Origin: Rhizobium sp. FKL33
Lineage (GTDB): Bacteria; Pseudomonadota; Alphaproteobacteria; Rhizobiales; Rhizobiaceae
Direction of reading: 5' to 3'
DNA length: 64,000 bases
Assembly (NCBI RefSeq): GCF_005222915.1
Contig: NZ_STFX01000054.1
Span: forward strand, 45,166 to 109,165
This document shows positions 36,732 to 58,754 of the stretch, piece after piece. The translations under genes were made by a program, and so were the position numbers. Within the stretch, counting starts at the first letter, position 1. Each line of letters starts with the position of its first letter. The notes beneath the pieces are model-generated. The model did not search any database. It saw only the letters and a program-made list of their open reading frames with translations, and had not been told where the DNA came from.

Positions 36732-38204
36732 TTGTCCCCTTCCCCCACCTCGTTCACCGATGAAGCCTGGATCGCGCTCGAAAATCTCGGCGACAAAGCG
36801 TCGAGCCTGTTCAACCCCTCCATTCGGTTGGGCGTGACCGGGCTCTCACGCGCCGGCAAGACCGTGTTCATCACCGCGCTGATCCACAACCTTCTGAATG
36901 GCGGGCGGTTGCCGCTGTTCGAAGCGCAGCGGTCCGGCCGGATCAAATCGGTCGCACTGGAGGAGCAACCCGACGACGCCGTGCCGCGCTTTCAATATGA
37001 GGATCACGTCAAGGCGCTGGTCGGGAGACGGATCTGGCCCGATTCAACGCGGGCGATCTCGGAACTGCGCATCACGCTGCATTACCAGAGCGCATCCGGC
37101 TGGGGGCGGCTCCTGTCGCCCGGCAAGCTGTCGATCGATATCGTCGATTATCCGGGCGAATGGCTGATGGATCTGCCGCTCTTGACGCAGGATTTCGCCG
37201 CATTTTCGGAGCAGGCGCAGAAACTGGCGCGCCAGCCGCGCCGGGCCGGTTTCGCCCGCGACTGGCTCGCCCGCGCCGAACAGACTGCGCCGGATGCGCC
37301 GGCCGACGAAATGACGGCTCGGGACCTGGCGCAGGATTTCACTGCCTATCTGCGGGCCTGCAAGGATGATGAGCAGGCTTTCTCGTCGCTCGCGCCGGGG
37401 CGGTTCCTGATGCCCGGCGATCTCGACGGCTCGCCGGCGCTGACCTTTGCGCCGCTCGTCAGGCTGCAGCCGGGCAAGCCGCCGAAAGGCAGTCTGCAGG
37501 CGATGATGGAGCGACGTTTCGAAGCCTATAAGGCGCATGTGGTGAAGCCGTTCTTTCGCGAGCATTTCACCCGGCTCGACCGCCAGATCGTACTGGTGGA
37601 CGCGCTGCAGGCGATCAATGGCGGATCCGAGGCGATCGAAGATCTCGAAACCGCGCTCGGCGACGTGCTGGCGTCTTTCCGTCCGGGCGCCAATTCCTTT
37701 CTCGGCTCGCTGCTGACGCGGAAGATCGACAAGGTGCTGATCGCCGCCACCAAGGCCGATCATCTGCATCACGAAAGCCATGATCGGCTGGAGGCCATTA
37801 CCCGCCGCATGGTCGAACGCGCGGTCAAACGCATCGGCCGAACCGGCGCGGGCATCGACGTGATTGCGCTCGCTTCGGTGCGCTCCACCCGCGAGGCGAC
37901 CGTGTCACGCGATGGCGACACGCTGCCGGTGATCGTCGGCACGCCGATCGCGGGCGAGAAGATCGCCGGCGAAAAATTCGACGGCGAGAGGAAGACGGCG
38001 GTGTTTCCGGGCGACCTGCCAGCCAATCCCGACGTCTACTTCGATCGCGACGGCGATGCGGCCGGACAGGCGCCGCCGCAGGTCAATGTCGTCAGATTCC
38101 GGCCGCCGGAGATCGACGAGACCGGCGGCGGCATCAAACTCTCCCTGCCGCATATCAGGCTCGACCGCGCCTTGCAGTTTCTCATCGGAGACCGGCTGAC
38201 ATGA
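36732..38204 (+). CDS. YcjX-family GTPase-like protein
   Basis: This 490-residue DUF463 protein has the YcjX P-loop GVTGLSRAGKTVFITALIHN near residue 34, the switch-like DIVDYPGEWLMDLPLL, and the late VLIAATKADHLHHESHDRL resembling a TKxD base-specificity motif. YcjX accompanies YcjF in many proteobacteria and is tied to the phage-shock regulon in E. coli; its function is unknown. The start is TTG 36732 (GGA eight bases upstream). Its stop overlaps the YcjF gene as ATGA (38201-38204). A small internal repeat, AGEKIAGEKF, is seen late. Confidence 0.9.
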   Translation: MSPSPTSFTDEAWIALENLGDKASSLFNPSIRLGVTGLSRAGKTVFITALIHNLLNGGRLPLFEAQRSGRIKSVALEEQPDDAVPRFQYEDHVKALVGRRIWPDSTRAISELRITLHYQSASGWGRLLSPGKLSIDIVDYPGEWLMDLPLLTQDFAAFSEQAQKLARQPRRAGFARDWLARAEQTAPDAPADEMTARDLAQDFTAYLRACKDDEQAFSSLAPGRFLMPGDLDGSPALTFAPLVRLQPGKPPKGSLQAMMERRFEAYKAHVVKPFFREHFTRLDRQIVLVDALQAINGGSEAIEDLETALGDVLASFRPGANSFLGSLLTRKIDKVLIAATKADHLHHESHDRLEAITRRMVERAVKRIGRTGAGIDVIALASVRSTREATVSRDGDTLPVIVGTPIAGEKIAGEKFDGERKTAVFPGDLPANPDVYFDRDGDAAGQAPPQVNVVRFRPPEIDETGGGIKLSLPHIRLDRALQFLIGDRLT

Positions 38205-39232
38205 CAGACGACACCCGCCGCCGCTCTCCCCAGGCCTTTTCCATCGGCGATCCGCCGCAATCCGCGCCGAAGCCGGCGCGGGCGCCGGCCGCCTTCGACG
38301 CCGATGTGACGCTGACATCGGGGGAGGAGGATCCGTTTCTGGCCGAACAGATGGCCGATCCGCCCGTGGCCGCGCCGCGCCGCAAGGGTTTTCCATTGTT
38401 CTCGATACTGACGGGCGCGCTCGGCCTGTTGTTCTCCGCCGCCTTCACCCTCTGGCTCGACGGCCTGATCCGCGATCTCTACGCCCGCGCCGACTGGCTC
38501 GGCTACGCCGCCTTGACGCTGACGGGCGTCGCCGTGCTGGCGGCGCTCGGCATGGTCGGCCGCGAAATCTGGGCCTTGCGCCGCCTGGCCTCCGTGCAGG
38601 ACCTGAAGCGCGAGGCGGAGATCGCGCTCAGCGACCGGAAGCCCGCCCATGCCCGCGCGGTGGTGGCGAAGCTGGTTGCCTTGTCCGCATCGATCCCGGA
38701 GACGGAAGCCGGCCGCAAGGCGTTGGCGGCGACGGAAAAGGACGTCATCGACCCGGAAGGCCTGATCAGGCTCGCGGAGCTTGAACTCCTCTCTCCCGCC
38801 GATCGCCGTGCGAGACGGCTGATTCTCGATGCGAGCAAACGCGTGTCGATCGTCACCGCCGTCAGTCCGCGCGCCATCGTCGATCTCGGCTACGTCCTGT
38901 TCGAATCGGCCCGACTGGTGCGGACGGTGGCGGAGACCTATGGCACCCGCCCGGGACGTCTCGGCATGCTCCGGCTGTTCGGCGACGTGATCGCCCATCT
39001 CGCCGTCACCGGATCGATCGCCGTCGGCGACGGCATCGCCCAGCAGGTGCTCGGCCATGGCGTCGCCTCGAAGATTTCGGCGCGGCTCGGCGAAGGCGTT
39101 ATCAACGGGTTGATGACGGCGCGAATCGGCATCGCCGCCATGGATCTCCTGCGTCCCCTGCCGTTCCGCGCTCAGAGGCGGCCCGGCGTCAGTGATTTCG
39201 TGGGGGATCTCACCGGATATTCCGGTGGATAA
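38201..39232 (+). CDS. YcjF-family (DUF697/TIGR01620) membrane protein
   Basis: This 343-residue protein has a disordered, proline-rich N-terminus (1-60), two membrane helices (about 66-84 and 104-122), a charged helical segment, then a hydrophobic DUF697-like C-terminal region (RLGMLRLFGDVIAHLAVTGS; GLMTARIGIAAMDLLRPLPF). YcjF is the regular partner of YcjX, and the ATGA overlap with that gene supports joint function at the inner membrane. Confidence 0.9.
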   Translation: MTDDTRRRSPQAFSIGDPPQSAPKPARAPAAFDADVTLTSGEEDPFLAEQMADPPVAAPRRKGFPLFSILTGALGLLFSAAFTLWLDGLIRDLYARADWLGYAALTLTGVAVLAALGMVGREIWALRRLASVQDLKREAEIALSDRKPAHARAVVAKLVALSASIPETEAGRKALAATEKDVIDPEGLIRLAELELLSPADRRARRLILDASKRVSIVTAVSPRAIVDLGYVLFESARLVRTVAETYGTRPGRLGMLRLFGDVIAHLAVTGSIAVGDGIAQQVLGHGVASKISARLGEGVINGLMTARIGIAAMDLLRPLPFRAQRRPGVSDFVGDLTGYSGG

Positions 39233-40820: not shown

Positions 40821-41336
40821 TCACACCCGACGCCACCAACCCCGATCTGCGTCCGCCACCTCGATGCCGGCGGCGTCGACATCGGCGAGCCAGGCGGAAA
40901 TCGGACGCTCGGCGACGACGAGATCCGGCGCGAGATCGGCAAGCGGCAGGAGCACGAAAGCGCGCTCCGTCATGCGCGGATGCGGCAGAGTGAGTTCTTC
41001 GCTCGCCAGCGCGACATCGCCATAAGCGAGTACGTCGAGATCGATGGTGCGCGGGCCCCAGCGTTCGATGCGGATGCGCTTCATCGACCGCTCGATCTCC
41101 AGACAGAGACGCAGAAGCGACAGGGGATCGAGCGTGGTCGAAATCTCCGCCGCGCTGTTGAAGAACCAGTCCTGATCGGTCTTGCCCCAAGGCGGGGTTC
41201 GATAGAGCCGGGAGACGGCGGTGACGCGACAGTCCTGCCGCGCCTCGACCTGCTGCAACGCCGCGGCCATATTGGCGACGGGGTCGCCGAGATTGCCGCC
41301 GAGCCCGAGATAGGCGACGGTTTCAGCGTTCGGCAT
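40821..41336 (-). CDS. folK: 2-amino-4-hydroxy-6-hydroxymethyldihydropteridine pyrophosphokinase
   Basis: The 171-residue protein has the HPPK motifs: AYLGLGGNLGDP at the N-terminus, SRLYRTPPWGKTDQDWFFN, and the metal-binding RWGPRTIDLDVLAYGD. It transfers pyrophosphate from ATP to the pterin in folate synthesis. ATG 41336 lies 14 bases inside the folB gene, so the two are coupled. It is the last gene of folP-folB-folK, read in pathway-neighbour order. Confidence 0.96.
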   Translation of the reverse strand: MPNAETVAYLGLGGNLGDPVANMAAALQQVEARQDCRVTAVSRLYRTPPWGKTDQDWFFNSAAEISTTLDPLSLLRLCLEIERSMKRIRIERWGPRTIDLDVLAYGDVALASEELTLPHPRMTERAFVLLPLADLAPDLVVAERPISAWLADVDAAGIEVADADRGWWRRV

Positions 41337-41697
41337 GATGCTCGACGGACACCTGGACATAGTCGAGAACGCCGGTGATCGGCGCATTCGGCTTGCGCAG
41401 CGTGATCTTGGCGCGGACGATCTGCGGAAACTGCTGGGCGAGCGCGCGGGCGATCTCCGTGGCCAGGGCCTCGATGAGATAATAACGGCGGCCGGTCACG
41501 ATCTTCTCGATCAGTTTGAAGGCGACGCCGTAATCGACCGTCGTTTCGAGCGAGTCATGTTCGAGCGGACCGGCGGGCATGACCTCCAGTTCGGCGTCGA
41601 CGAAGAAGCGCTGGCCCAGCACTTCCTCTTCGTCCATGACGCCGTGACGCGCGAAGAAGGCGCAGTTGGCGAGAGTGATCGTGTAAGTGCCAGTCAT
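41323..41697 (-). CDS. folB: Dihydroneopterin aldolase
   Basis: The 124-residue protein matches FolB: FFARHGVMDEEEVLGQRFFV with the catalytic segment, DSLETTVDYGVAFKLIEKIV, and a C-terminal RKPNAPITGVLDYVQVSVE. It cleaves dihydroneopterin to the hydroxymethylpterin used by FolK. Its start overlaps the folP stop as ATGA (41694-41697) and its end overlaps folK by 14 bases, showing one operon. Confidence 0.96.
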   Translation of the reverse strand: MTGTYTITLANCAFFARHGVMDEEEVLGQRFFVDAELEVMPAGPLEHDSLETTVDYGVAFKLIEKIVTGRRYYLIEALATEIARALAQQFPQIVRAKITLRKPNAPITGVLDYVQVSVEHHAER

Positions 41698-42566
41698 GCA
41701 AGTGTTCCTCGCCCATCCGTTTCGCGGGCCTTGAGCATAGCATCGGCGACGCGCAAGGCGTCGCGGTTGAATGCGACATTATGGACGCGGAAAATGGCCG
41801 CGCCCGCATTTCTGAGAAGCGCGCTCGTCGCCGCGGTGGCTACGTCGCGCTCGGCCGGATCGCGACCCGTCAACGCGCCGAGAAACCGTTTACGCGACGT
41901 TCCCGCGAGAAGCGGATAGCCGAGTGCGATCAACTCGTCAAACCGGGCCATCAGCGCCAGATTGTCCGAAGGCGTCTCCTTGTTGAAACCGAAACCGGGA
42001 TCGAGCACGATCCGTTCCCGGGCAAGCCCCGCCTCTTCGGCGATGCGAAGCGTCGCCGCGAAGAAATGCCGCTGGTCCTCGACCGGATCGGCAAGCTTGT
42101 CGCGTCCCCTGCCCGTATGCATGGCGATGACGCCCGCTCCGGTGTCCACCGCCGTTGCGGCCATGGCGGGATCCTTCTGCAAGCCCTCGATATCGTTGAT
42201 GATATGGGCGCCGGCGCGGATCGCCAGCCGCGCGGTGTCAGCGCGATAAGTGTCGACCGACAGGATCAGGCCGGATTTGCGCGCCAGTTGCTCGATCACC
42301 GGCAGAATGCGGGCCTGCTCTTCCTCGGCCGATACGGGCGCAGCGCCGGGACGGGTGGATTCGCCGCCGATATCGATGATCCGGGCGCCGTCTTCCGCGG
42401 CCTGAAGCGCATTTGCGACCGCGCTCTCGACCGCCAGATTGCGCCCGCCATCGGAGAAGGAATCGGGCGTGACATTGATCACCGCCATGATCACCGCCTC
42501 AGGACCCAGCGTCAGGCTGCGTCCATGCGCGAGTTTCCAGTCGAAGGGCGCGAAGGGCGAGGTCAT
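41694..42566 (-). CDS. folP: Dihydropteroate synthase
   Basis: The 290-residue TIM-barrel enzyme has the FolP signatures MAVINVTPDSFSDGG, RIIDIGGESTRPGA, INDIEGLQKD, RIVLDPGFGFNKE, and the late AGTSRKRFLGALTG. It joins p-aminobenzoate to the pterin pyrophosphate, the step blocked by sulfonamides. ATG 42566 follows GGAG; the longer frame to 42683 is not used. It is first in the folP-folB-folK operon and divergent from the DUF922 gene across 116 bp. Confidence 0.97.
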   Translation of the reverse strand: MTSPFAPFDWKLAHGRSLTLGPEAVIMAVINVTPDSFSDGGRNLAVESAVANALQAAEDGARIIDIGGESTRPGAAPVSAEEEQARILPVIEQLARKSGLILSVDTYRADTARLAIRAGAHIINDIEGLQKDPAMAATAVDTGAGVIAMHTGRGRDKLADPVEDQRHFFAATLRIAEEAGLARERIVLDPGFGFNKETPSDNLALMARFDELIALGYPLLAGTSRKRFLGALTGRDPAERDVATAATSALLRNAGAAIFRVHNVAFNRDALRVADAMLKARETDGRGTLA

Positions 42567-42682
42567 CAGAGATCTCCGCTCGGGATGTGATGGGCTGCTG
42601 ATTGCATATTGCGCGGCGGCAGACAATGACTGAAAATGGTCGCCGGCGTCGAGGACGCGCAGGGGATGCGAGGAGTGAACCA

Positions 42683-43288
42683 ATGAACAGAATGGCCCGT
42701 CTCGCTGTCGCCGTCGCCATTCTCGCTATCGCTCCCGTCGCCCATTCGGAAATGATCGCGCGCAAGACCGTCACCTATTTCAGCATCGGCGGGAAAACCG
42801 CAGCCGATCTCGACCGGGAAATGGCCGAACATGGCCCGCTTCTGAATACCGGGCGGCGGCATCCGGGCGCGACGCGCGTGACATTTGCCGGAAAGGCCTC
42901 CTATGTGGCCGAAGAAGGCCGCTGCAGCATCGGCGAGGCGCGCATCGTTTTGACGACCAAGATGATGCTGCCGCGATGGAAAAACCGGTCCAAGGCCGAC
43001 GCGCGGATGGCTCTGCTGTGGGACACGCTGTCGGCGGACATCAAGCGGCATGAGGAGCGGCATGCGGAGATCGCCCGCAACCATGCCCGCGCGCTGGAAA
43101 AGACGCTGCGGTCGCTGAGGCCTGAAAAGAATTGCGAGGCGCTGAAGGATAAAGTCGCATTGGCGACGGCGAAGGCGCTGGAAGACCATGATGCGGATCA
43201 GAAGCGATTCGATCGAATCGAGGCCGTCAATTTCAGCGCTCGCATGACGCGACTGCTGCGTTACCGGGCAACGGGCCGCGCGGAATAG
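42683..43288 (+). CDS. DUF922 secreted putative zinc protease
   Basis: The 201-residue protein has a signal peptide (cleavage after AHS, about residue 22) and a mature domain of the DUF922 type, with KTVTYFSIGGKTAADLDREM, a conserved Cys, WDTLSADIKRHEERHAEIAR carrying the HExxH-like HEERHAE motif, and a second Cys. DUF922 proteins are suggested zinc-dependent proteases of the periplasm; the substrate is unknown. ATG 42683 follows AGGAG. The motif reads HEERH, which keeps the two His and Glu of a zincin. Confidence 0.85.
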   Translation: MNRMARLAVAVAILAIAPVAHSEMIARKTVTYFSIGGKTAADLDREMAEHGPLLNTGRRHPGATRVTFAGKASYVAEEGRCSIGEARIVLTTKMMLPRWKNRSKADARMALLWDTLSADIKRHEERHAEIARNHARALEKTLRSLRPEKNCEALKDKVALATAKALEDHDADQKRFDRIEAVNFSARMTRLLRYRATGRAE

Positions 43289-43611: not shown

Positions 43612-43980
<369 letters not shown>

Positions 43981-44020: not shown

Positions 44021-44389
44021 TCAACGCGACAGCTTGAGAATGAAATTCTCGGCTTCGATGACGGCGGCGCTGAGCATTGCGAGGGCTGCGGCGTCATTGG
44101 CGTCGTTTTCGACCTTTTCGGCGACGGAGGAGACGCTGAAGGCGCCGATAGCGAGCGCCGCCCCCTTCAGCCGATGGGCGATTGCGGCGCGGTTGTCATT
44201 GGCCGCGACGGCGAGTTCCGCCATGCAGTTGCGGGCCTGACGCGCAAAAATGTTGAGAACTTCGAGTTCGAGGTTCTTGTCGCCCGAGGTCTGTCGCGCA
44301 AGATGGACGAGATCGATGGGGCGGGCCCGCGACGGCGCGACGGATGCGTAGTTATCGGGCGCTTCGAAGGCGATGGATGCGGCTGCCAT
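44021..44389 (-). CDS. Single-domain histidine phosphotransfer (Hpt) protein
   Basis: This 122-residue all-helical protein contains the Hpt phosphorylation motif AIAHRLKGAALAIGA, with phospho-acceptor His72 and the conserved downstream Lys and Gly. There is no kinase or receiver domain. Such proteins pass phosphate between a hybrid kinase and a response regulator. ATG 44389 follows AGGGA. It is divergent from the giant polar-growth gene across 435 bp; no kinase or regulator is adjacent, so the partners are elsewhere. Confidence 0.85.
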   Translation of the reverse strand: MAAASIAFEAPDNYASVAPSRARPIDLVHLARQTSGDKNLELEVLNIFARQARNCMAELAVAANDNRAAIAHRLKGAALAIGAFSVSSVAEKVENDANDAAALAMLSAAVIEAENFILKLSR

Positions 44390-44824
44390 GTTCTTTTCCC
44401 TGTTCTTGTTTGTTTGTGACACATGCGAGTTTTCTTATGACTGAGAGTGTCGCAGCAACGGACGCAAGAACGCTTAATTGAGGCGTTTTCAGGGAAGGCA
44501 TTTTGCAAAGATGGTTAACGAAGCCTAAACAGGCCTAATCACTTGGCTTTTCCGGCGAACGCGGCCAAATTGTCGTTAATATCCCCTCAACCTTGCGCCG
44601 AGCTTTCCCACAAGTGATTGTATCAAAACGGCTTCTGTGCCACTACGTAACGTGGGTAATAAGGTCGTGTTTAACCAGCGGCCGCGAAAGTAACGTTCCA
44701 GCGGGACGCATCCATCGCCCCCTGTGGCGTGACATGCGACTATTGCCGGATCGAATGCAGGGCCTCGACGTTTCGTTCTCGTTCAGAGCGACAGCGACGA
44801 GGTAGGAAAACGAGGCAGTTCGGA
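44390..44824. other. Control region between hpt and the giant polar-growth gene
   Basis: No gene. It contains TTAA (44515-44518), seven bases, TAAA (44526-44529), close to the CtrA site TTAA-N7-TTAA, and several further TTAA tracts (44474, 44575). Promoters of both divergent genes should lie here. The long gap fits regulated, possibly cell-cycle-linked, transcription. Confidence 0.4.
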
Positions 44825-47800
44825 ATGACGATTAAGAACGAAAACGACGCCGTGTCGGAAAACGCCTATCGGGCGTTGGAAGAGGCCCTGGCGATCGACT
44901 TTCAGGACGACCATTCCGGAACGCAGCCCCAGCAGCGGGAGAACCGTGTGTCCGACGTCGCAAATCAGCCCGGAAAAAACCCGCAGCAACGCACTGCTGA
45001 CAATGCCCGTTCACTCGGCCCGGAGCCCGGCCCGCGCGCCCCGTCGCACCGCCCCGCCAACGATCCCCTGCCGACCGCTGCAGCCGCCCTCACCCGCGGC
45101 TTCGACGCGCCGCGCTCGAAATCGCCGATGCGGATTGCCGCCGCGATCTCCGCGCTCTGGGTGCTTCTCGGTCTCGTCGCCGCCCATTTCCTCTATGCGC
45201 CGGAGATCTGGCAGATCTCGTCGCTGCGCGATCTCGGCGCCATTCCGGGCGCGCTGCCGACGTTGATCGGCATCCTTTTCCCGGTCATGATCTTCTTCGC
45301 TTTCGCCTCGATGATCGCCCGGGCGCAGGAACTCAAGAACGCCGCCCGCTCGATGGCGGAAGTAGCGTTGCGCCTTGCAGAACCAGAAAGCATCGCCGCC
45401 GAGCGCATCATGACCGTCGGTCAGGCCGTGCGCCGCGAAGTCTCGGCCATGAACGAAGGCATCGAGCGCACCATCGCCCGCGCCTCCGAACTCGAAACGC
45501 TCGTTCATTCGGAAGTGAATGCTCTGGAGCGCAGCTATAGCGACAACGAATTGCGCGTGCGCAGCCTGGTGCAGGAGCTCGGCAGCGAGCGCGAGGCGAT
45601 CATCGGCCATGCCGAACGCGTGCGCTCCTCGATCACCGGCGCGCAGGATCTGCTGCGCGACGAACTCGCCAGCGCCAGTCTGACCATCGCCAAGAACATC
45701 GCCACCTCGGGCGAAGCCGTCGCCCAGATGATCGACACGCAAGCCGCGATCATCATGCAGAAGAGCGGCAATGTCGCCAACACGATCGGCTCGGTCCTCT
45801 CCAAGAAGACGGAAGAGCTGGTCGGCGCGCTCGAAACCTCGGGCCTTGCTCTGACCGAGGAATTCGACACCCGCATCGAAACGCTCGGCGTGACGATCAA
45901 CGAGCGCGGCAACAAGCTGCTGTCCGAATTCGAGACACGCGCCTCGATGGTGGACGCTACCACCGAAAAGCTGAACGCGGCGCTTGCTGACCGCACGCGC
46001 CAGCTCAACGAGACGCTGATCGCCCGCACCCGGCAGATCAACGAAACGCTGACCAACAGTGGCGGCGTGATCAGCAATTCGCTGGAATCGATGCTGAAAT
46101 CGCTGAACGCGACGCTCGACCAGAAGAACCAGAGCTTCCGCCAGGCGCTGAAGAGCACCACGGACGACGCGATCATGGATCTCGACGTCCGCACCGCCTT
46201 CCTCGACGAGCGGCTCAAGTCCTCGGTCGACCAGGTGTCGTCCGCCTTCGACGGCCGGCTGGGCGAATTCGCGGAAGCCTTCGACAAGCGCGCCGGCTCG
46301 CTGGACGCCAAGCTCAACGAGAGCCTCACCCGCATCAACAAGGCGCTCGGCCAGGGCCAGGACGCGCTGGGCAGCACGCTGGAATCCTCGCTGGAGCGGA
46401 TCGCCCAGTCCTTCATGGGTCAGGCGGTCGCCATCGAAACCGCGCTCGGGGCCGGGCAGGAAGTCATCGAAACGGCGCTCGACGCCAAGGTCGGCGACAT
46501 CACCAAGGTGATCGGCCGCGCCAATCAGGAACTCGACAGCGGCTTCGGCGCGCGCGCCGATGCGCTGGCCCAGAAGATCGCCGAACGCACGCAGGCGATC
46601 GAAACCGCCATCACCACCGGCCATGAGCGTATGTCGAGCCTGCTCGACGACCGCTCTTCGGGCATTGCCGCCGCTTTCGACGAGACCAATCGCAAGCTCG
46701 ACCAGACATTGTCCGGCGGCGAGCAGCGGCTGGGCGCGCTGTTGTCGGAGCGTTCCGGCGCGCTGATATCGGCTTTCGACAAGACGGAAAAAACACTTGC
46801 CGGCACGATCGGCGACGGCGAGCGCCGCCTGTCCGATCTCATCGACGGCCGCGGCTCCAGCCTCGAACGGTCGCTGGCCGACAGCGCCGCCCGAATCGAA
46901 ACCGCTGTCGCCACCGGCGGCGAACGGCTCGAGAAATCACTGGCGGAAGGCGGCGCGCGCATCGAGAACGCCATCGGCACGACGCCGGAAACGCTCGCCC
47001 GCATGCTCGACGAAAAGGGCCAGGCGATCGAGAAGGCGCTCACCGACAATCAGCAGCGCCTCGACACCGCCATGGCGCGCGGCTCGGAACTGATCACCGG
47101 CGCGTCCGAAGACGCCCGTTCGCGGCTGGCCAAAACGCTCGGCGAAAACGCCATCACCATCGCCGCCGTCTATGGCGAGCATCAGAAGCGGATCGACGAG
47201 ACGCTGCGCGAACGCGCCGGCGAGATCGAAAAGACCCTCGGCGACGGCGCGAGCCGCATCGCCGGCGCCTCGCAGGACACCGCCCGCTTTGTGCAGGGCG
47301 CGATCGAGCAGGGCGTGCGCGACATTTCCGAAGCGCTGGAAAATGGCGGCGCCGATCTCGGCATCCAGCTCGCCACCACGCATGACCTGATCCGCCAAAC
47401 GCTGGAGGATCGCTCCAACGCCATCACCATCGCGCTCGAGGAAGGCCGCAAGCAACTCGACGACACCATCAACGAGCAGGCCACCGGCATCGGCGCCAGC
47501 ATCGCCATGGGCGCGAGCATGCTGGAAATGTCCTTCGAAGACGGCGAGAGCAGGCTGCGCAATGTCGTCGAGCAATCGACCCAGAAACTGACATCCGCCG
47601 TGGACGGCGCAACGGATTCGCTGACGTCCTCGGTCGAACAGACCACCGGCCAGCTCAAGGACGCCCTATCCCGCAGCGCCACCGACTTCGAAACCAGCGC
47701 CGGCAGCTTCTCCGAAAAGATCGCCGAGCGCGAACGCAGCCTGCGCCAGGTGCTCGATGCGACCGCCGACGCGCTCGACAGCCGCATGCAGGCGAGCGCC

Positions 47801-50800
47801 ACGGCGCTGAACGCCAATGCGCGCAAGGTCGAGGAAACGCTCGCCATGCGCGAGGCGAGCCTGGCGACAGCCATCGAAAACCTCGCCCAATCGCTCGACG
47901 AGCGGCTGATCGCGACCGTGGGCGGCCTCAACGCCGATGTCGAGCGCAGCCACGAGGCGCTCCGCCAGACGCTCGGCCAGAGCGGCCTGACGCTGGAAGA
48001 AACCGCCGAACGGCTGATCGCCCAGATCTCGGCCCATCGCGATGCGCTGCGCGACACCGTCGACGCATCCTCGCGCTCGATCGACGAACGGCTCGAATCC
48101 GGCGCCGCCAACATGCTGTCCAACATCATGATGCTGGACATGAAGCTCGAGGAGCGCGAAAGCGCGCTGCGCGAGGCCGTGGCCGCTGCGAGCAATCGCT
48201 TCGAAACCGAACTCGGCCAGCGCCAGGAAAACCTCGTTCAGGCCCTTGACGCCACCGCGCGCGCCATCGGCGAACGGCTGGATCTCGGTTCCGCCGATCT
48301 ACTCTCCAATATTATGTCGGTCGACATGACGCTCGAAGCCCGCGAGGCGTCACTTCGGGAAACGATCGAAGCCTCGACCGCGCGGCTGGATGGCGATCTC
48401 GCGCGCCGCCAGGAAACCCTCGCCCAGACGCTCGACGCCTCGGCGCGCGCCATCGGAGAGCGGCTGGAGACGGGATCCGCCGATCTTCTCTCCAACATCA
48501 TGTCGGTCGACATGACGCTCGAAGCCCGCGAGGCGTCGATCCGGGAAGCGATCGAAGCCTCGACCGCGCGGCTGGATGACGATCTCGCCCGCCGCCAGGA
48601 AACCCTCGCCCAGACGCTCGACGCCACCACCCGCGCGATCGGCGAACGGCTGGATACCGGAGCGGCAGCGATTTCAGCCTCGGTAGACAAGTTTGACGCC
48701 CGACTCGGCGAACGGGAAATCGCGCTCAGCCAGACGATCTCCACGACGGTCGATCGCCTGGGCAGCGACCTCGCCCAGCGCCAGGAAAGCCTGACACAGT
48801 CACTCGAGGCGACATCGCGCGCCATTGGCGAAAAACTCGATGCCGGCGCGACGGACCTGCTCTCCAACATCATGTCGCTCGACATGACGCTCGAGGCCCG
48901 CGAACAATCGATGCGCGAAGCGATCGAAGCATCCACGAGCCGGCTCGACGGCGAATTGTCGTTGCGCCAGGAACTTTTCGTACATGCGCTGGAATCGTCT
49001 GGCGCCACTCTGGATCAGCGCTTCCAGCGTGGCTCCGAAACAATTCTGAACAATATAGAACGGCTTGAAGCCGGCCTGGCCGAACGCCAGGACAGCATGA
49101 TCCGCGCCGTGGAAGGCGTGGCGCAGTCGCTGGACGACCAGTTCCTCTCGGCGCTTTCCAACCTGAACGCCGGCGTCGAACTCAGCCATGGCGCGATCCG
49201 CGACACGCTGAACGACAGCACGTTGTCGCTCAACCAGATGGCGGAGCGGCTTTCGGCCCAGATCTCCGCCCACCGCCAGGCGCTGCAGGAAACCATCGAA
49301 GCCTCGACGGTGTCGATCGACGAGCGGCTTGAAAGCGGCGCTGCCTCCATGCTGTCCAACATCATGATGCTGGACATGAAGCTCGAAGAGCGCGAAGAGG
49401 CGCTTAAACAGGCGCTCGCCGCAGCGTCGGAAAATCTCGACCAGTCCATGAGCCGCTCCGCCCAGACGCTCACAGAGCGTTTCGGCGAAAAGGCGGCGGA
49501 AATTGTGACAGTGGCCGAAACCTTCAGCCAGCGTATCGACGGGGCGCTGGAGACGGTGTCGAACCGGTTCGACGAAACCGGCGGCCGTATCCTCACCAGC
49601 TTCGATCGACTGGAAACCGGCATCCGCGACGATGCGGGCCGTTTCGCCCAGACGATCGACGAAGCCGGCGTCAAGCTGGGTTCGCTGATCGAAACGCAGA
49701 TCCAGTCCTTCGATCGCGTCACCGAAACCGGCGCCAGCCGCATTTCTGAAACTCTGGAAAGCCATACGGCGCATCTCGACGAACGTCTGCAGACCATGGA
49801 TCGCGCGCTGACGATCGGCCTCGAGAACGTCTCGCGCACGATCGACGGCAAGGCGTCCGGCCTCGCCTCGACCCTGCGCTCGGCCGTCATCGACGCCGCG
49901 CAATCGATGGACGACGAAGCGCAGCGGGCGATCGACCAGATCTCCGGCAAGACCTTCGAATATGCCGACGAGATGGCGGCCCGCAGCGCCGGCTTCTCCA
50001 GCCGGCTCACCGAGGAGGCGGAAGCCTTCGCCAGCACCGTGCAGTCCAATGCCGACCAGTTCGCGACCCGGCTCACCGGCGATGCGCAGCTCATCAGCGC
50101 GCGGCTGTCCAGCGAAGCGGACCGTTTCTCCGACCGGATGTCGTCCGAAGCAGACGCCTATGCCGGCCGTTTGGCGTCCGGCGCCGACGCCTTCACCGGC
50201 AAGCTGGTCAGCGAGACCGAGAGCTTCGCAAGCAAGCTGACGCAGGATGCGGAAGCCTTCACCGGCCGCATCGCCGGCGAGGCCGAAACCTTCACCGGCA
50301 AGCTCGCCGAACAGACCGACGCCCTGACCAGCAACTTCGCCCGCAACGCCAACCAGTTCGCAGAACAGGTGGGCGCGGCCCAGCAGAAGGTGATGAACGA
50401 CGGCGCGGCGATCAGCCAGAGCCTGACCTCGGCCGAAAAGGCGCTGGCGGCCCGTAACGAGGCGATCCGCACCACGCTGGACGACCGCACCCGCGAACTC
50501 AACTCCATGCTGGCGGCGCGCTCGGCCGAACTCAACCGCCTGATCGAGGAAAAGGCGCGGCCGGCGGCCGAGAGCCTGCAGAGCCTGGGACAGACGGCCG
50601 CCGAAGACATCCGCAGCGCCGCCGAACAGGGCGCGGCCCTGCTGCGCGGCGAGAACGCCGCCCTGGTCAACGCCATCTCCAGCCGCACGCTGGAGGCGAC
50701 CCGCGCGCTCGGCGACAGCGAACAATCGCTGCGCGCCACCGCGCTCGGCTTGATCGACGCGCTCGGCCAGAGCAATGCCGGCCTCAAGCAGCTGGTGGCG

Positions 50801-52681
50801 GAGGCGACAGCCAATCTCGGCGCGATCGACGAAACGCTCAACAGCACCGCAGGCCGCTTCTCCGACAGCGCCGCGCGCGCTTCGGACTCGGTCAATGCAG
50901 CGGCTCGTCTGCTCGAAGGCAATGCGGAGCGTCTCTCCTCGGTCTCCAACGACACGCTCGGCCAGATCGGCCAGCTCGTCGGCCGCTTCGACGATCACTC
51001 CAAGGTGCTCGGCCAGGCGTCGACGCTCCTCGGCGCCGCGCAATCGAACCTCGTCTCGACGCTTGCCGAACGCGAGGAGGCGCTGCAGGCCCTGGCCGTC
51101 GGCCTCGTTCGCCGCTCGGAAGACATCGAAAACACCATGCGCTCGGTGTCCGGCCTGGTGGAAGCAGCCTTCGACCGGGCGGAAAACCGCGCCGGCCAGG
51201 TGACCAACACGGTCCGCACCGGCATCCAGACATCGTTCGCCGATATCGGCAAGGTGCTGGGCGAAGCCGAACAGCGGGCCGAGCAGATGGCCAATGCGCT
51301 GCGCGGCAATGTCGGGGCCGCGGCTCAGGATGCGGGCCGCGCCGTCGAAAGCGCGCTGGGCAAGGCCAGCGAACAGGCCGACCAGGTGGCCGGACGGCTT
51401 CGCGGCGCTGTGTCGGGTTCGCTCGCCGATGTCGACCGCATGCTCGGCGAAACGGGCGCGCGCTCGACGGCAACCGCCGAAGACATGCGCCAGGCGCTAC
51501 AGGCGGCGATCGAGGATTCGATCAACCGCTTCGCCGGCGCAACCGACGAGATCCGCCGCACCGCCGGCGAAATCCGCCGCGAACTCACCGACACCCGCGC
51601 GGAACTGAAGCGCGGCGCCTTCGACCTGCCGGAAGAAGCGAAAGAAAACGCCGCCCAGATGCGCCGCGCCGTGGCCGAGCAGGTCCGCGCGCTGCAGGAA
51701 CTGACCGGCATCATCGGCGTGTCCGCCTCGCATTTCGAAGCGCCGCGTCCGGTCCGACAGGAGGCTGCGCCCCGCGTCGAGCAGCAGCCGGTCTACGCCG
51801 CGCCGCGGGTGGAAGCCCAGCCGGTCGCCTATCAGGCTCCTCGTGTCGAGGCGCAGCCGGCGGCCTATCAGACTCCCCGCGCGCCGGCCCCTGCGCCCGT
51901 CGCTGTCGAGGCCGCCCGTCCCGAGCCGCAGCGGGTGACCGCGCAGCAACCGCAACAGCGGGCGCCCGAGGCGCGGCCGCCGGTCGCCCCGCAGGCGTCC
52001 CGGCCGCAGCCTGCAGCCGAACCGCGCCGCGCTGAGACCCAGCCGGCTGCGGAACGTCCGTCGATCCCGCTCACCTCGGCTCCGCGCCAGGACAGAAGCG
52101 CGGCCGCCCCGGCCCGCGAACCGCTCGGTCTGCGCGGCAGCCTCGGCGTCGATCCGCTGAACCGGCCGTCTTCGCCGCGCGACGCGCGTCCCGCCCCGGC
52201 GCAACCAACGGCGCGCCGCGAAGAAGGCCAGGGCTGGATCAGCGACCTGCTCCGCAACGCGTCCCGCGACGAAGCGGAGGCCGACGCGCGCGCGGCTGCC
52301 CCGGCCGCCACCCGCGTGGAAAACCGCAATCCCCGCCAGGTGGTGGAATCGCTGAATTCGCTCTCGGTCGACATCGCCCGCGCCATCGATCACGAGGCGT
52401 CGGTGGATCTCTGGCGGCGCTATCATCGCGGCGAGCGCGACGTCTTCACCCGCCGTCTCTACACGCTCAAGGGCCAGCAGACCTTCGACGAGATCCAGCG
52501 CAAATACGACCGCGAGCCGGAATTCCGCTCCGCCGTCGACCGCTATATCGGCGACTTCGAAAAGCTCTTGAACGATGTGGCCCGCAACGACCGCGACAAG
52601 ACGCTGACGCAGAGCTACCTCACCTCCGACACCGGCAAGGTCTACACCATGCTGGCGCATGCGGCGGGCCGGTTTTCGTAA
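44825..52681 (+). CDS. Giant coiled-coil membrane protein, growth-pole-ring (GPR/RgsE) homologue
   Basis: At 2,618 residues this is the largest gene. The N-terminus has a conserved short motif NAYRALEEALAIDFQDD, a disordered stretch to about 100, two membrane helices (about 103-124 and 143-164), then some 2,100 residues of nearly continuous apolipoprotein-like helical repeats, a Pro/Gln/Ala-rich linker (about 2301-2490) and a conserved C-terminal domain (VDLWRRYHRGERDVFTRRLY). This order matches the Agrobacterium GROWTH POLE RING protein and Sinorhizobium RgsE, which form a ring at the growing pole and are needed for polar elongation. It includes near-identical 62-residue repeats and twelve 11-residue repeats (1721-1852). 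ATG 44825 is used; the upstream frame has no RBS. Confidence 0.87.
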   Translation: MTIKNENDAVSENAYRALEEALAIDFQDDHSGTQPQQRENRVSDVANQPGKNPQQRTADNARSLGPEPGPRAPSHRPANDPLPTAAAALTRGFDAPRSKSPMRIAAAISALWVLLGLVAAHFLYAPEIWQISSLRDLGAIPGALPTLIGILFPVMIFFAFASMIARAQELKNAARSMAEVALRLAEPESIAAERIMTVGQAVRREVSAMNEGIERTIARASELETLVHSEVNALERSYSDNELRVRSLVQELGSEREAIIGHAERVRSSITGAQDLLRDELASASLTIAKNIATSGEAVAQMIDTQAAIIMQKSGNVANTIGSVLSKKTEELVGALETSGLALTEEFDTRIETLGVTINERGNKLLSEFETRASMVDATTEKLNAALADRTRQLNETLIARTRQINETLTNSGGVISNSLESMLKSLNATLDQKNQSFRQALKSTTDDAIMDLDVRTAFLDERLKSSVDQVSSAFDGRLGEFAEAFDKRAGSLDAKLNESLTRINKALGQGQDALGSTLESSLERIAQSFMGQAVAIETALGAGQEVIETALDAKVGDITKVIGRANQELDSGFGARADALAQKIAERTQAIETAITTGHERMSSLLDDRSSGIAAAFDETNRKLDQTLSGGEQRLGALLSERSGALISAFDKTEKTLAGTIGDGERRLSDLIDGRGSSLERSLADSAARIETAVATGGERLEKSLAEGGARIENAIGTTPETLARMLDEKGQAIEKALTDNQQRLDTAMARGSELITGASEDARSRLAKTLGENAITIAAVYGEHQKRIDETLRERAGEIEKTLGDGASRIAGASQDTARFVQGAIEQGVRDISEALENGGADLGIQLATTHDLIRQTLEDRSNAITIALEEGRKQLDDTINEQATGIGASIAMGASMLEMSFEDGESRLRNVVEQSTQKLTSAVDGATDSLTSSVEQTTGQLKDALSRSATDFETSAGSFSEKIAERERSLRQVLDATADALDSRMQASATALNANARKVEETLAMREASLATAIENLAQSLDERLIATVGGLNADVERSHEALRQTLGQSGLTLEETAERLIAQISAHRDALRDTVDASSRSIDERLESGAANMLSNIMMLDMKLEERESALREAVAAASNRFETELGQRQENLVQALDATARAIGERLDLGSADLLSNIMSVDMTLEAREASLRETIEASTARLDGDLARRQETLAQTLDASARAIGERLETGSADLLSNIMSVDMTLEAREASIREAIEASTARLDDDLARRQETLAQTLDATTRAIGERLDTGAAAISASVDKFDARLGEREIALSQTISTTVDRLGSDLAQRQESLTQSLEATSRAIGEKLDAGATDLLSNIMSLDMTLEAREQSMREAIEASTSRLDGELSLRQELFVHALESSGATLDQRFQRGSETILNNIERLEAGLAERQDSMIRAVEGVAQSLDDQFLSALSNLNAGVELSHGAIRDTLNDSTLSLNQMAERLSAQISAHRQALQETIEASTVSIDERLESGAASMLSNIMMLDMKLEEREEALKQALAAASENLDQSMSRSAQTLTERFGEKAAEIVTVAETFSQRIDGALETVSNRFDETGGRILTSFDRLETGIRDDAGRFAQTIDEAGVKLGSLIETQIQSFDRVTETGASRISETLESHTAHLDERLQTMDRALTIGLENVSRTIDGKASGLASTLRSAVIDAAQSMDDEAQRAIDQISGKTFEYADEMAARSAGFSSRLTEEAEAFASTVQSNADQFATRLTGDAQLISARLSSEADRFSDRMSSEADAYAGRLASGADAFTGKLVSETESFASKLTQDAEAFTGRIAGEAETFTGKLAEQTDALTSNFARNANQFAEQVGAAQQKVMNDGAAISQSLTSAEKALAARNEAIRTTLDDRTRELNSMLAARSAELNRLIEEKARPAAESLQSLGQTAAEDIRSAAEQGAALLRGENAALVNAISSRTLEATRALGDSEQSLRATALGLIDALGQSNAGLKQLVAEATANLGAIDETLNSTAGRFSDSAARASDSVNAAARLLEGNAERLSSVSNDTLGQIGQLVGRFDDHSKVLGQASTLLGAAQSNLVSTLAEREEALQALAVGLVRRSEDIENTMRSVSGLVEAAFDRAENRAGQVTNTVRTGIQTSFADIGKVLGEAEQRAEQMANALRGNVGAAAQDAGRAVESALGKASEQADQVAGRLRGAVSGSLADVDRMLGETGARSTATAEDMRQALQAAIEDSINRFAGATDEIRRTAGEIRRELTDTRAELKRGAFDLPEEAKENAAQMRRAVAEQVRALQELTGIIGVSASHFEAPRPVRQEAAPRVEQQPVYAAPRVEAQPVAYQAPRVEAQPAAYQTPRAPAPAPVAVEAARPEPQRVTAQQPQQRAPEARPPVAPQASRPQPAAEPRRAETQPAAERPSIPLTSAPRQDRSAAAPAREPLGLRGSLGVDPLNRPSSPRDARPAPAQPTARREEGQGWISDLLRNASRDEAEADARAAAPAATRVENRNPRQVVESLNSLSVDIARAIDHEASVDLWRRYHRGERDVFTRRLYTLKGQQTFDEIQRKYDREPEFRSAVDRYIGDFEKLLNDVARNDRDKTLTQSYLTSDTGKVYTMLAHAAGRFS
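48269..48826 (+). repeat. Tandem 186-bp repeats within the giant coiled-coil gene
   Basis: Units begin at 48269, 48455 and 48641 (GGCGAACGGCTGG or a variant) exactly 186 bp apart. The first two are nearly identical over their whole length (62 residues, LLSNIMSVDMTLEAREAS), and the third diverges in its second half. A more distant copy (SIDERLESGAA-NMLSNIMML) occurs at about 48080 and again 1,236 bp later at 49316. Confidence 0.85.
49985..50380 (+). repeat. Twelve tandem 11-residue (33-bp) repeats
   Basis: Residues 1721-1852 break into twelve 11-residue units, such as ADRFSDRMSSE, ADAYAGRLASG, ADAFTGKLVSE, AEAFTGRIAGE and AETFTGKLAEQ, with aromatic or Leu at position 4 and Leu/Ile/Val at position 8. 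This hendecad period gives a straight or right-handed coiled coil, different from the flanking heptad-like helices. Confidence 0.85.
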
Positions 52682-53692: not shown

Positions 53693-54100
53693 TCAAGCTC
53701 GCTTCAATTCCTCGACCACCTCGGGATAACGATCCAGAACCCGGAACAGATTTACGATCGCCGCCGTCGGATAGACCTTTCCGGTTTCGTATCGTGAAAA
53801 GGCATTGTGCCCGCCGCCTGTGAGCTCCGACGCTTCGATCTGGCTGAGCCTAAGCTTCTTGCGGATCCGGCGGAGTTCTTGTCCGACCGCGCGGCGCGCT
53901 TCCAGCACCAAGGTGTCCCCTGCCTCGGCATATCGCTCTGCGCTTTCGGGGTCGAACTCGATATCGCCGCAGAGGCTGCAACGATATCCGGACAATCCGT
54001 CCACATCGCGCTTGAGATCTCTAAAGTCCACCGAATGCGTTTCGCCTTCAAAACGAGACATTTCAGCGTCGGCGTGACCACAAAGGCAGTTTTTCGCCAT
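53693..54100 (-). CDS. mqsA: MqsA-type antitoxin
   Basis: The 135-residue protein has an N-terminal zinc-binding domain (Cys5, Cys7, Cys41, Cys44; CLC in place of the usual CxxC first pair) and a C-terminal HTH_XRE domain (LRLSQIEASELTGGGHNAFS; RYETGKVYPTAA) as in E. coli MqsA. It binds the MqsR toxin and represses its own operon. It follows mqsR by two bases. The toxin-first order is that of the typical mqsRA operon. Confidence 0.9.
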   Translation of the reverse strand: MAKNCLCGHADAEMSRFEGETHSVDFRDLKRDVDGLSGYRCSLCGDIEFDPESAERYAEAGDTLVLEARRAVGQELRRIRKKLRLSQIEASELTGGGHNAFSRYETGKVYPTAAIVNLFRVLDRYPEVVEELKRA

Positions 54101-54102
54101 GG

Positions 54103-54405
54103 CTAGAGCTCCTTGAACTGAATGACTGGCGGACCGTCTTCGCGTCGTGTCACTTTAATGTAGACCACGCCCCAAATAGTTTTCGCGTGATAGACGTCCT
54201 GCCAAACCCTGCTGTCAGCATTGGTGGTCATGGATTTGTACAGGTGTTTGTTTGACAGGCTGCATACGACGTCAATCATCTCCGCCGAGGTAAAGCCCAT
54301 TCTTCGTCCGCCATCCAGCGCCGCCTTGGTGAAGGCGGCCGCTCTCAGCTTTCGGACATCGGCAACAATCGCCAAGAGGTCGTAATGAGCCTTTTTCTTC
54401 TCCAC
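54103..54405 (-). CDS. mqsR: MqsR-type mRNA interferase toxin
   Basis: The 100-residue protein matches MqsR in length and pattern: HYDLLAIVADVRKLRAAAFT, MGFTSAEMIDVVCSLSNKHLYKSM, and VWQDVYHAKTIWGVVYIKV with the late GPPVIQFKEL. MqsR cleaves mRNA at GCU-type sites. The start is GTG 54405; AAGGG lies eleven bases upstream. It is the first gene of the mqsR-mqsA pair, with a palindromic operator just before it. Confidence 0.9.
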   Translation of the reverse strand: MEKKKAHYDLLAIVADVRKLRAAAFTKAALDGGRRMGFTSAEMIDVVCSLSNKHLYKSMTTNADSRVWQDVYHAKTIWGVVYIKVTRREDGPPVIQFKEL

Positions 54406-54596: not shown

Positions 54597-55217
54597 TCAC
54601 ATCGCCTTCAGCGTCCAGCCCACAAGGTCCACCGTCACTTTGCCGAAGGCGGCGTCGAGTCCCTTGATGAAGGCCTCGTTGCCGGAGCCGCTCAGCGGCG
54701 CGCTGGCGGTGAAGACGCGGCTGGCGCGCACCTCGCCGGTGCGGTCGTTGAGAAGCTTGGCGGAGATCTCCACCTGGGCGCGGCTGCCGCCATAGGCCTG
54801 GACTTCGAAGGAGCGGATTTCGGTAATGACCTGATAGTCGATGGCGAGGCCCTGGCCCGGCGTGCCCACACCGCCCAGGCGGCCGGTGTTTTCGAAGGCC
54901 TGGACGAGGCGGGCCTGCACGAGTTTGGGCAGGCGGTCGCTCCAGCGCGATTTGTCCAGATACTGGATTTCGGACTGGCTGACGCGGATCACCACCTGTT
55001 CGGAATCGAGCGCCTTGACCGCGGTCGGCTCCGGAATGAGGATCTGGCGCTTGGTGAGCTTCGGTCCTTCGACGCCGCGCACCGCCGTCAGCGAAAACGT
55101 GTCGTCCGGCGCGCCGCCCAGGCAGCCGCCCAGGGCCAGCAGGCATGCGCCCATGAAAGATGCCCTCGCCAGTCGGATCACGCTACGCTCCCTTGTCCTG
55201 TTCATCCCATGCGCCAT
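54597..55217 (-). CDS. ABC-type transport auxiliary lipoprotein of the Mla-like system
   Basis: The 206-residue lipoprotein (lipobox LGGC, in CLLALGGCLGG) has a domain of the ABC-transport auxiliary type (DUF330/PqiC-like: ILIPEPTAVKALDSEQVVIR; KSRWSDRLPKLVQARLVQAF; SKLLNDRTG-type beta region). ATG 55217 overlaps the MCE gene's TGA as TGATG; ATG 55205 is an alternative. It should link the MCE protein to the outer membrane in lipid transport. Confidence 0.85.
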   Translation of the reverse strand: MAHGMNRTRERSVIRLARASFMGACLLALGGCLGGAPDDTFSLTAVRGVEGPKLTKRQILIPEPTAVKALDSEQVVIRVSQSEIQYLDKSRWSDRLPKLVQARLVQAFENTGRLGGVGTPGQGLAIDYQVITEIRSFEVQAYGGSRAQVEISAKLLNDRTGEVRASRVFTASAPLSGSGNEAFIKGLDAAFGKVTVDLVGWTLKAM

Positions 55218-56587
55218 CAATGCCGGACCCTGCCCTTATATGTCTTGACCTCGTCGCCGCCGAACAGCAGCCGCTGCGGATCCTGGTCGAGCCGGTTGAT
55301 CGCCGAATCCAGCGACTGCACGGTGCGGCGGGTGTCGGAGATCAGCGCGTCGATATTCTTGAGGCCGGAGCCCGAGAAACGGGCGAGATTGTCGGCGATC
55401 GGACCGATGCGAGAATTCAGATTGTCGGCCACCTGCTTGAAGGATTTCAGCGTTTCCCGGGCATCGGCAAACAGCGACGAGGAGTCGCCCGTGCCGAGGA
55501 AGCTGTCCGCCTTGGCGAGGATGCCGTCGACGCGGGTCGAGGCCTTGTTCAGCTTGTCCGACATTTCCGAGATGTTCTTGATGGTCTTGTCGATGTCCGG
55601 ACGGCGGTTTTCGATGTCGGAGGCGACGCCGCGGAAGGTCTGGATCGCCTGGCGCGCGTCGGCCACGGCGGCCCTGATATCTGCGACCGAACTCTTGACG
55701 TCGGCGGGATCGACCGCGGCCATCAGCTGATCGACCTTGTCCAGCGTCTTGGCCGCCTTTTCGCCGACAACGCGATAGGCTTCGGCGGTCTTGTTGAAGG
55801 TGTCGACGGCCTGCCCCACACCGCCCGACGCGTCGGCCAAATCCTTGCTGACCTTTTCGGCATTGGCGAGAATGGCGTCGATCTTCTTGGCGTCCACCGC
55901 CTTCACCAGGCTGTCGACGGAGGCGAGGGTCGAATCCAGCCGGCCGGAGAGACCCTTGATCGTGCCGGAGAGCGAGGTCACCGCTTGCAGGAATTCATCG
56001 ATGCCCTGGGAATTGTTCTTGAGCGCCTGCGAGAAGACCTCGACATTGGAGATCGTGCTGGTCAACGGCTTGCGATTGTCGTTCACGAAACCCTGCAGCT
56101 GGATCAGCGTCGTCTCGGTTCGGTTCATGATCTCGGAGGCGGTGGCGACGATATTGGTGACGCCGGATTGCTCCGCCAGCAGGGTCGGCACCTCGCCCGC
56201 CTTCAGCGCCTTATCGATCAGACGCTCCTGCTGCGTGTTTCCGCCCGACAGTTCGATATAGGCGGCGCCGGTCAGGCCCTGGATTTCAAGCACGGCGCGG
56301 GTGGTGGGATAGATCGGCGCGTCAGCCCGCACTTCGGTGACGGCCAGCGAAAAGCGCGGGTCCTTGCGGTCGAAGTCGAGCGCGCGGACCGTGCCGACCG
56401 GAATGCCGTTGAAGCGGACGGCGGAGCCGACGCTCAGGCCGTTGGCGGAGCCGGGGATGCGCACCACCAGCCGCTCCATCTTGCCCTCGCGCCCATAGGC
56501 GGACATCCAGTAGACAAAGCCGAAGGCAAGCAGCAGCACCACCAGGGTGAACAAGCCGACGATTGCGTAATTTGCTTTCGTTTCCAT
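55217..56587 (-). CDS. MlaD-family MCE-domain protein
   Basis: This 456-residue protein has one N-terminal membrane helix (ANYAIVGLFTLVVLLLAFGF), an MCE domain (SANGLSVGSAVRFNGIPVGT; LEIQGLTGAAYIELSGGN) and a long helical tail of coiled-coil character (about 150-440). MCE proteins bind lipids and form hexameric channels or tunnels from the inner membrane into the periplasm. It lies between the ATPase and the auxiliary lipoprotein genes in one operon. Its tail is much longer than that of E. coli MlaD (about 183 residues). Confidence 0.92.
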   Translation of the reverse strand: METKANYAIVGLFTLVVLLLAFGFVYWMSAYGREGKMERLVVRIPGSANGLSVGSAVRFNGIPVGTVRALDFDRKDPRFSLAVTEVRADAPIYPTTRAVLEIQGLTGAAYIELSGGNTQQERLIDKALKAGEVPTLLAEQSGVTNIVATASEIMNRTETTLIQLQGFVNDNRKPLTSTISNVEVFSQALKNNSQGIDEFLQAVTSLSGTIKGLSGRLDSTLASVDSLVKAVDAKKIDAILANAEKVSKDLADASGGVGQAVDTFNKTAEAYRVVGEKAAKTLDKVDQLMAAVDPADVKSSVADIRAAVADARQAIQTFRGVASDIENRRPDIDKTIKNISEMSDKLNKASTRVDGILAKADSFLGTGDSSSLFADARETLKSFKQVADNLNSRIGPIADNLARFSGSGLKNIDALISDTRRTVQSLDSAINRLDQDPQRLLFGGDEVKTYKGRVRH

Positions 56588-56641
56588 GCCTCAAGCCGTT
56601 TCACTCATAAAAGGGTTCACTGAAATCCCTTTGGATTGACG

Positions 56642-57451
56642 TTAGGTGACCAGTCCCGGAATAGTGCGCGCGCGTTTGCCGCGGAAGTAAGACTGGACCC
56701 ATGCATCCTTGCAATCGAGCATGTCCTGGATCGTCCCTTCCACCATTACACGTTTATTGCCGAGCACAGCAATCCGATCGCAGACAGAAAACAGGCTGTC
56801 GAGGTCATGGGTCACCATGTAGACCGTCAGCCCCAGCGTATCGCGCAATTTGGCGATCAGCTGGTCGAATTCCGCAGCGCCGATCGGATCGAGGCCGGAT
56901 GTCGGCTCGTCGAGAAACACCAGCGCCGGATCGAGCGCGAGCGCCCGGGCGAGCGCCGCGCGCTTGATCATGCCGCCAGACAGTTCGGATGGATATTTGT
57001 CCCCCGCCTCAGGAGCCAGCCCCACCAATTCGATCTTCAAACGCGCCAGCTCGTCCATCAGTTGCTTTGGCAGGTCGAGATATTCCCGCATCGGAAACTG
57101 GATGTTCTCCTTGACGGTCAGGGCGGAGAACAGCGCCCCATGCTGGAACAGCACGCCCAGGCGCATGTCGAGCTCGAAACGCTCCTTGTCCGGCATCTTG
57201 CTGTAATCGGCGCCCAGCAGGCGGATCTCGCCGGCTCGACGCGGAATAAGCCGCAGGATGGTGCGCATCAGCACGGATTTGCCGGTGCCAGACGCGCCGA
57301 CGAAACCGAGGATTTCGCCGCGATAGACGTCGAGATCGAGTTGATCGAGCACGAGATGATCGCCAAAGCCCACGGTGACGCCGCGCGCCGACAGGATGAC
57401 GTCCTTTTCACCCTTGGCCGCCCCAGTCTGATGGTTCGTCACACTTTCCAT
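56642..57451 (-). CDS. Mla-type ABC transporter ATP-binding protein
   Basis: The 269-residue ATPase has Walker A GASGTGKSVLMR, Q-loop in GVLFQHGALFS, signature LSGGMIKRAALARALAL, Walker B LVFLDEPTSGLDP and the switch His in MVTHDLDS. LSGGM and the GLDP turn are typical of MlaF. ATG 57451 follows GAGG. It lies eight bases after the permease stop and powers phospholipid transport with the MlaE-like permease. Confidence 0.93.
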   Translation of the reverse strand: MESVTNHQTGAAKGEKDVILSARGVTVGFGDHLVLDQLDLDVYRGEILGFVGASGTGKSVLMRTILRLIPRRAGEIRLLGADYSKMPDKERFELDMRLGVLFQHGALFSALTVKENIQFPMREYLDLPKQLMDELARLKIELVGLAPEAGDKYPSELSGGMIKRAALARALALDPALVFLDEPTSGLDPIGAAEFDQLIAKLRDTLGLTVYMVTHDLDSLFSVCDRIAVLGNKRVMVEGTIQDMLDCKDAWVQSYFRGKRARTIPGLVT

Positions 57452-57458
57452 GCCCGCC

Positions 57459-58601: not shown

Positions 58602-58754
58602 AGGGTCATCCTTCAATAGGACGGCCCTCATGGCCGCCTTGCACTAAAAACTCGTCGCGACCCAAGCGAGTCACGTAAGGGGACTATTGACAATAGTTTA
58701 ATCACAGGAGCAAGGCGCTGTTTTGATCAGCATGACGCGATTGAGGATTCTATC

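Follow-up and report, generated by a model that had tools for sequence, protein, structure and literature searches.

How a bacterium builds a rod from one tip without MreB is an open question, for which a leading scaffold candidate is GPR, described as forming a ring in Agrobacterium tumefaciens (PMC8262873). The Sinorhizobium meliloti protein RgsE is described as having a polar position and a role in shape, although it is not strictly essential (PMC7327166). The 64,000-nucleotide stretch of Rhizobium sp. FKL33 DNA analyzed here (hereafter the window) carries a long open reading frame that an earlier note had assigned to this family and had considered larger than the known members, raising the question of whether the protein belongs there and how far its size sets it apart. 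It is a protein of known kind, an ordinary local version of a giant polar-growth organizer, and is long without being record-long.

Gene Identity and Local Synteny

The gene and its upstream neighbors in the window are as follows; those marked syntenic have counterparts in S. meliloti.

38201..39232, forward strand: YcjF/TIGR01620 gene, syntenic
39431, forward strand: hypothetical gene, matched in S. meliloti by position only
40821..42683, reverse strand: folK, folB, and folP, syntenic
42602..43288, forward strand: DUF922 gene, syntenic
43612..43932, reverse strand: 2Fe-2S (Fer2) gene, syntenic
44021..44422, reverse strand: single-domain Hpt gene (PF01627), divergent from gpr
44825..52681, forward strand: gpr/rgsE ortholog, 2,618 aa (open reading frame, PF01442, two-way search, synteny)

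Between the ATG at 44825 and its terminal stop the frame is uninterrupted. An alternative GTG start at 44729 would give 2,650 residues; an ATG lies no more than one residue from the start predicted at 44825 in 73 of 77 complete relatives. A scan of 44300-44900 for promoters and terminators found none. Searched against the S. meliloti Ak57 record (one 3.7-Mb replicon), the window protein matched a single gene, in seven pieces, and in the reverse direction this gene matched gpr alone in the FKL33 genome, in six pieces. The Ak57 gene encodes exactly 2,089 residues, the same as published RgsE, which is reported to be a homolog of Agrobacterium GPR with 42% identity (PMC7327166). Gene order and strands also agree between FKL33 and Ak57 from YcjF through the hypothetical gene, folK/folB/folP, DUF922, 2Fe-2S, and Hpt to gpr, the Ak57 annotation of this stretch including an additional small hypothetical gene. 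With searches in both directions matching each other's gene alone and the upstream order shared, the family assignment made in the earlier note stands: the 2,618-residue protein is an ortholog of Sinorhizobium RgsE (SMc00190) and hence of Agrobacterium GPR (Atu1348), the latter link being taken via RgsE and PMC7327166. RgsE and the FKL33 protein have in common synteny, ends, apolipoprotein-type helix, and linker, but RgsE is shorter by 529 residues; when the protein of another S. meliloti strain (L095) is aligned, its shortfall falls mostly in the variable part of the rod described below. GPR, likened here by published description, has the same architecture at 2,115 residues (PMC8262873). The nearest named relative among the best 80 loci is Rhizobium sp. 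SG_E_25_P2 (L032), with 90% identity over 2,591 aligned residues, and of 297 Rhizobiales genomes, 284 had the C-terminal domain.

Two other identities were rejected. ZorA (NF033914) scored 42.8 bits for the FKL33 protein and 69.8 for RgsE against a curated cut-off of 190, and for the label 'kinesin', under which the S. meliloti gene was deposited (CP090106.1, L173:6094-12363), the Pfam matches at E 0.001 include no motor domain. Although labelled pSymB, the CP090106.1 record has folate and cytochrome bc1 genes and seems to be chromosomal.

Downstream of gpr, FKL33 and Ak57 differ. Shortly beyond the gene in the window lies an MqsR toxin/MqsA antitoxin pair (53693-54405, reverse strand; PF15723, PF15731), followed by MlaD and MlaE lipid-transport genes (55217-58631, reverse strand); MlaD and MlaE are absent from the 12 kb downstream of Ak57 rgsE, where cytochrome bc1 genes follow.

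Domain Layout

The protein can be divided into the following segments, all on the forward strand.

45122..45328: N-terminal transmembrane hairpin, about residues 100-168 (hydropathy, AlphaFold)
45332..46324: fixed proximal rod, about residues 170-500 (few gap events, predicted single helix)
46325..50794: variable hendecad rod, about residues 500-1990 (gaps, periodicity, anchor distances)
47825..48169, approximate limits: first copy of a block that recurs 412 residues further on
48011..48850: 62-residue (186-bp) tandem repeats within the variable rod
49061..49405, approximate limits: second copy of the block
50822..51724: nearly fixed distal rod, about residues 2000-2300
51725..52339: Pro/Gln-rich linker, about residues 2300-2500, whose length varies but not by 11s
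52337..52678: conserved C-terminal helical domain (profile, AlphaFold)

The outline given in the earlier note agrees with this anatomy. Its two N-terminal membrane helices correspond to hydrophobic stretches at about residues 100-128 and 137-168, and an AlphaFold model of residues 78-570, of moderate confidence (mean pLDDT 70.5, pTM 0.26), predicts a helix at 101-124, a turn, and then a single helix over about 143-569. The apolipoprotein-like helix that it described is matched by PF01442 above the profile's cut-off (E 4e-65, 219.5 bits versus 90) over 11 stretches. Composition and alignments likewise uphold the Pro/Gln-rich linker and the conserved C-terminus, the last 150 residues being predicted as a helical domain (mean pLDDT 72.3, pTM 0.65). 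Compared with solved structures, the C-terminal domain gave nothing useful by sequence (best E 0.23) and no match by fold at E 0.001 (best E 0.18).

Protein Size and the Seat of Length Variation

Relatives for comparison were drawn from a contig scan, of which the best 80 loci (Rhizobium, Sinorhizobium, Shinella, and relatives) were taken; in 77 of these the 5' end of the gene is intact, with four lengths approximate. The 77 proteins span 1,685-2,959 residues with a median of 2,188, and two exceed the FKL33 protein (L035, 2,877 aa; L101, 2,959 aa), while that of L032 has 2,616. Among the order's matches listed, the open frames have a median of 1,979 residues (149 rows, contig-end fragments included), and 10 of the 149 exceed the FKL33 frame measured from stop to stop (2,668). 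The claim that the protein is larger than the known ones therefore holds against published GPR (2,115 aa; PMC8262873) and RgsE (2,089 aa; PMC7327166) but fails against the family: because relatives and order frames include longer ones, it lies in the upper tail and not beyond, and exceptional size is ruled out.

Most of the length variation is in the central rod, which is flanked by two nearly fixed rod segments. In 77 alignments to the FKL33 protein, gap events numbered 184 in residues 1-100, 3 in residues 100-499, 1,598 in residues 500-1999, 34 in residues 2000-2299, 614 in the linker, and 4 in the last 119 residues. The position at which the core ends correlates with total length at 0.996 in 78 proteins, a part-whole correlation, and linker length correlates with it at 0.739. 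The suggestion that expansion occurred mostly in the repeat region is borne out by this tracking of total length by the core end, and the duplication of a block 412 residues apart fits it. The block begins near residue 1001 and recurs 412 residues on; the 62-residue tandem repeat overlaps its first copy and then continues past the end of that copy. The proteins of Rhizobium setariae (L034) and of a further relative (L036) have one copy each, and in alignment each is shorter by 412 residues at the duplicated block, a shortfall that the spacing of the repeated block fits. Five more distant relatives have zero copies at 50% identity.

The length of the rod in this family appears to change in 11-residue steps. 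In 146 close pairs, which overlap so that events are non-independent, 371 of 511 core gaps were exact multiples of 11, compared with 9 of 623 in the linker. Since aligners may favor 11-residue gaps in repeats, the distance between two anchors was also measured without gaps: 77 proteins gave 54 distinct values of 1,186-2,297 residues, and these cluster modulo 11 (p ~1.8e-14, related sequences being treated as independent), while the same distances taken modulo 7, 9, 10, 12, 13, and 18 were consistent with uniform. Calculated arithmetically at 0.15 nm per helical residue, they would correspond to ~178-345 nm of extended single helix.

Nature of the Rod

Hydrophobic residues recur every 3.65 residues in the FKL33 protein, close to 11/3. 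In a fitted register, two positions per 11 are strongly hydrophobic (86 and 88%) and the others range from 5 to 18%. Because the register is fitted to the data, the shuffled control matters: the single one run gave 22 and 52% at those two positions, 52% being its highest value. Only two prolines occur between residues 188 and 2268. On these grounds, the two strong hydrophobic positions and the near-lack of proline, a hendecad coiled coil would describe the rod better than a lipid-binding apolipoprotein.

In exchangeable apolipoproteins the hydrophobic faces are broad, and proline punctuates the 22-mers of which they are built. A published hypothesis treats the helical core as a string of apolipoprotein domains whose task at the growth pole is lipid binding or sorting, drawing on apolipoprotein A-IV similarity and modelling (PMC8262873). 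The PF01442 matches to 11 stretches of the FKL33 protein favor it, as do a PF01442 match in S. meliloti RgsE, with ApoLp-III just under its cut-off, and periodicity lags of 11 and 22 residues. A profile match of this kind may, however, reflect periodicity alone, and the hydrophobic stripe seems narrow at 2 of 11 positions, as judged within the FKL33 sequence itself. Core aromatics amount to 2.2% with a net charge of -116, and proline-punctuated 22-mers are at odds with two prolines across residues 188-2268; we consider the lipid-binding core unlikely. A different kind of doubt concerns the 11-residue steps, which might stem from slippage or unequal crossing-over in DNA repeats and not from selection for helix phase. 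Tandem repeats of 33 and 186 bp do occur in the gene, but where core gaps depart from multiples of 11, most have a remainder of 3, 4, or 7, roughly keeping the helix phase, and 485 of 511 core gaps belong to classes 0, 3, 4, and 7; an origin in slippage is somewhat less likely than not. No paper joining the hendecad coiled coil with apolipoprotein was found in the open-licence literature.

Section 12 of PMC8262873 states 600 nm for 1,700 helical residues, which amounts to ~0.35 nm per residue; an alpha-helix at 0.15 nm would reach ~255 nm.

The Hpt Neighbor and Relatives Outside Rhizobiales

A divergent Hpt-like open reading frame lies within about 2 kb upstream of gpr in all 77 complete named loci and, among 20 further families of the order, in 14. 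The phospho-accepting histidine is kept in 69 of 80 aligned Hpt rows and the strict motif in 54 of 80; with these missing in part, a phosphorelay role may have been lost in some lineages. The linkage of Hpt and gpr is not proof of joint function.

Distant homologs of RgsE in other orders have already been reported (PMC7327166). With a C-terminal profile, 142 of 385 genomes of the class were matched, 137 of them outside the order and five being FKL33's own or other genomes of the same order. Open frames outside the order are shorter (median 1,027 residues in 141 rows, contig-end fragments included), and among 21 analyzed in full the helix period was 3.56-3.62, compared with 3.65 in the FKL33 protein. 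In the plasmid collection, the homolog of Sphingomonas parapaucimobilis is the only named one from outside the order. In a hand-chosen, non-random sample of genomes with the C-terminal domain, MreB was present at E 1e-40 in 24 of 25 from outside the order and in 0 of 20 from within it. A true MreB was not found in the FKL33 genome (assembly 98.2% complete), where actin-fold matches were weak, the best being 62 bits in a 700-aa frame versus best values of 475-510 bits in MreB-bearing genomes; a loose actin-fold threshold also gives matches in control genomes that vanish at E 1e-40. The earlier note had counted the same ends in bacteria that do not grow at the pole as evidence against its reading. 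This is in part what was found: 137 genomes outside the order have the C-terminal domain, and those sampled mostly carry MreB (24 of 25), which is the one clue here to how they grow. As the ends occur outside the order, mostly alongside MreB, sharing them does not imply polar growth: they mark an older family, and are no marker of polar growth itself.

It is fairly probable that these ends belong to a general alphaproteobacterial family of pole landmarks, probably including Caulobacter crescentus TipN, and that polar growth is secondary, in the MreB-less Rhizobiales. The breadth of the C-terminal domain and the MreB carried by most of the genomes outside the order argue for such a family, as do the at least two hydrophobic peaks, by our own threshold, in 17 of the 21 outside-order proteins (one in the other 4). 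A published statement of similarity between GPR and TipN (PMC8546619) points the same way; TipN is elsewhere called analogous (PMC13170164) and, likened by description, has 882 residues, about one-third of the length. The Hpt neighbor is divided evidence: a divergent one is present at 5 of 20 loci from families outside the order (a sixth, weak match within a large frame was uncounted), and the Sphingomonas homolog adjoins a gene annotated as Hpt, for which Pfam gave no match, but no Hpt-like frame lies within ~2 kb upstream at the remaining 15.

Proposed Working and Implications

Very probably, FKL33 GPR/RgsE is a membrane-anchored hendecad rod that scaffolds polar growth without MreB. Orthology, synteny, anatomy, modular 11-residue length variation, and the failure to find MreB are the parts of this model derived from FKL33 itself; the polar position, ring, and scaffold role would follow by analogy with published GPR/RgsE work, and a coiled-coil rather than lipid-binding rod is suggested by residue pattern. 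The transmembrane hairpin would anchor GPR in the inner membrane, and a hendecad helix of ~2,100 residues, nearly devoid of proline, would form a long cytoplasmic rod with a fixed proximal, an expandable middle, and a nearly fixed distal segment. A flexible linker would lead from it to the conserved helical domain, a probable site of partner binding, and several copies of GPR may assemble where the pole grows and serve there as a scaffold for the synthesis of envelope and wall.

A bolder and rather improbable extension is that GPR is the form, made longer in Rhizobiales, of an old alphaproteobacterial scaffold of the pole that kept a divergent Hpt partner gene, and that the polar ring owes its geometry to a hendecad coiled-coil rod evolving in 11-residue quanta. 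If rod length did set ring geometry, the natural length variants of ~1,690-2,960 residues would serve as a ready-made series of molecular spacers. The points to carry forward are the modular 11-residue-step variation in length and the Hpt linkage; a conserved Hpt neighbor might connect the scaffold with a phosphorelay. The comparison itself separates fixed from expandable rod segments and supplies a natural length series, together with a phase rule for designing deletions, namely to take out multiples of 11 residues.
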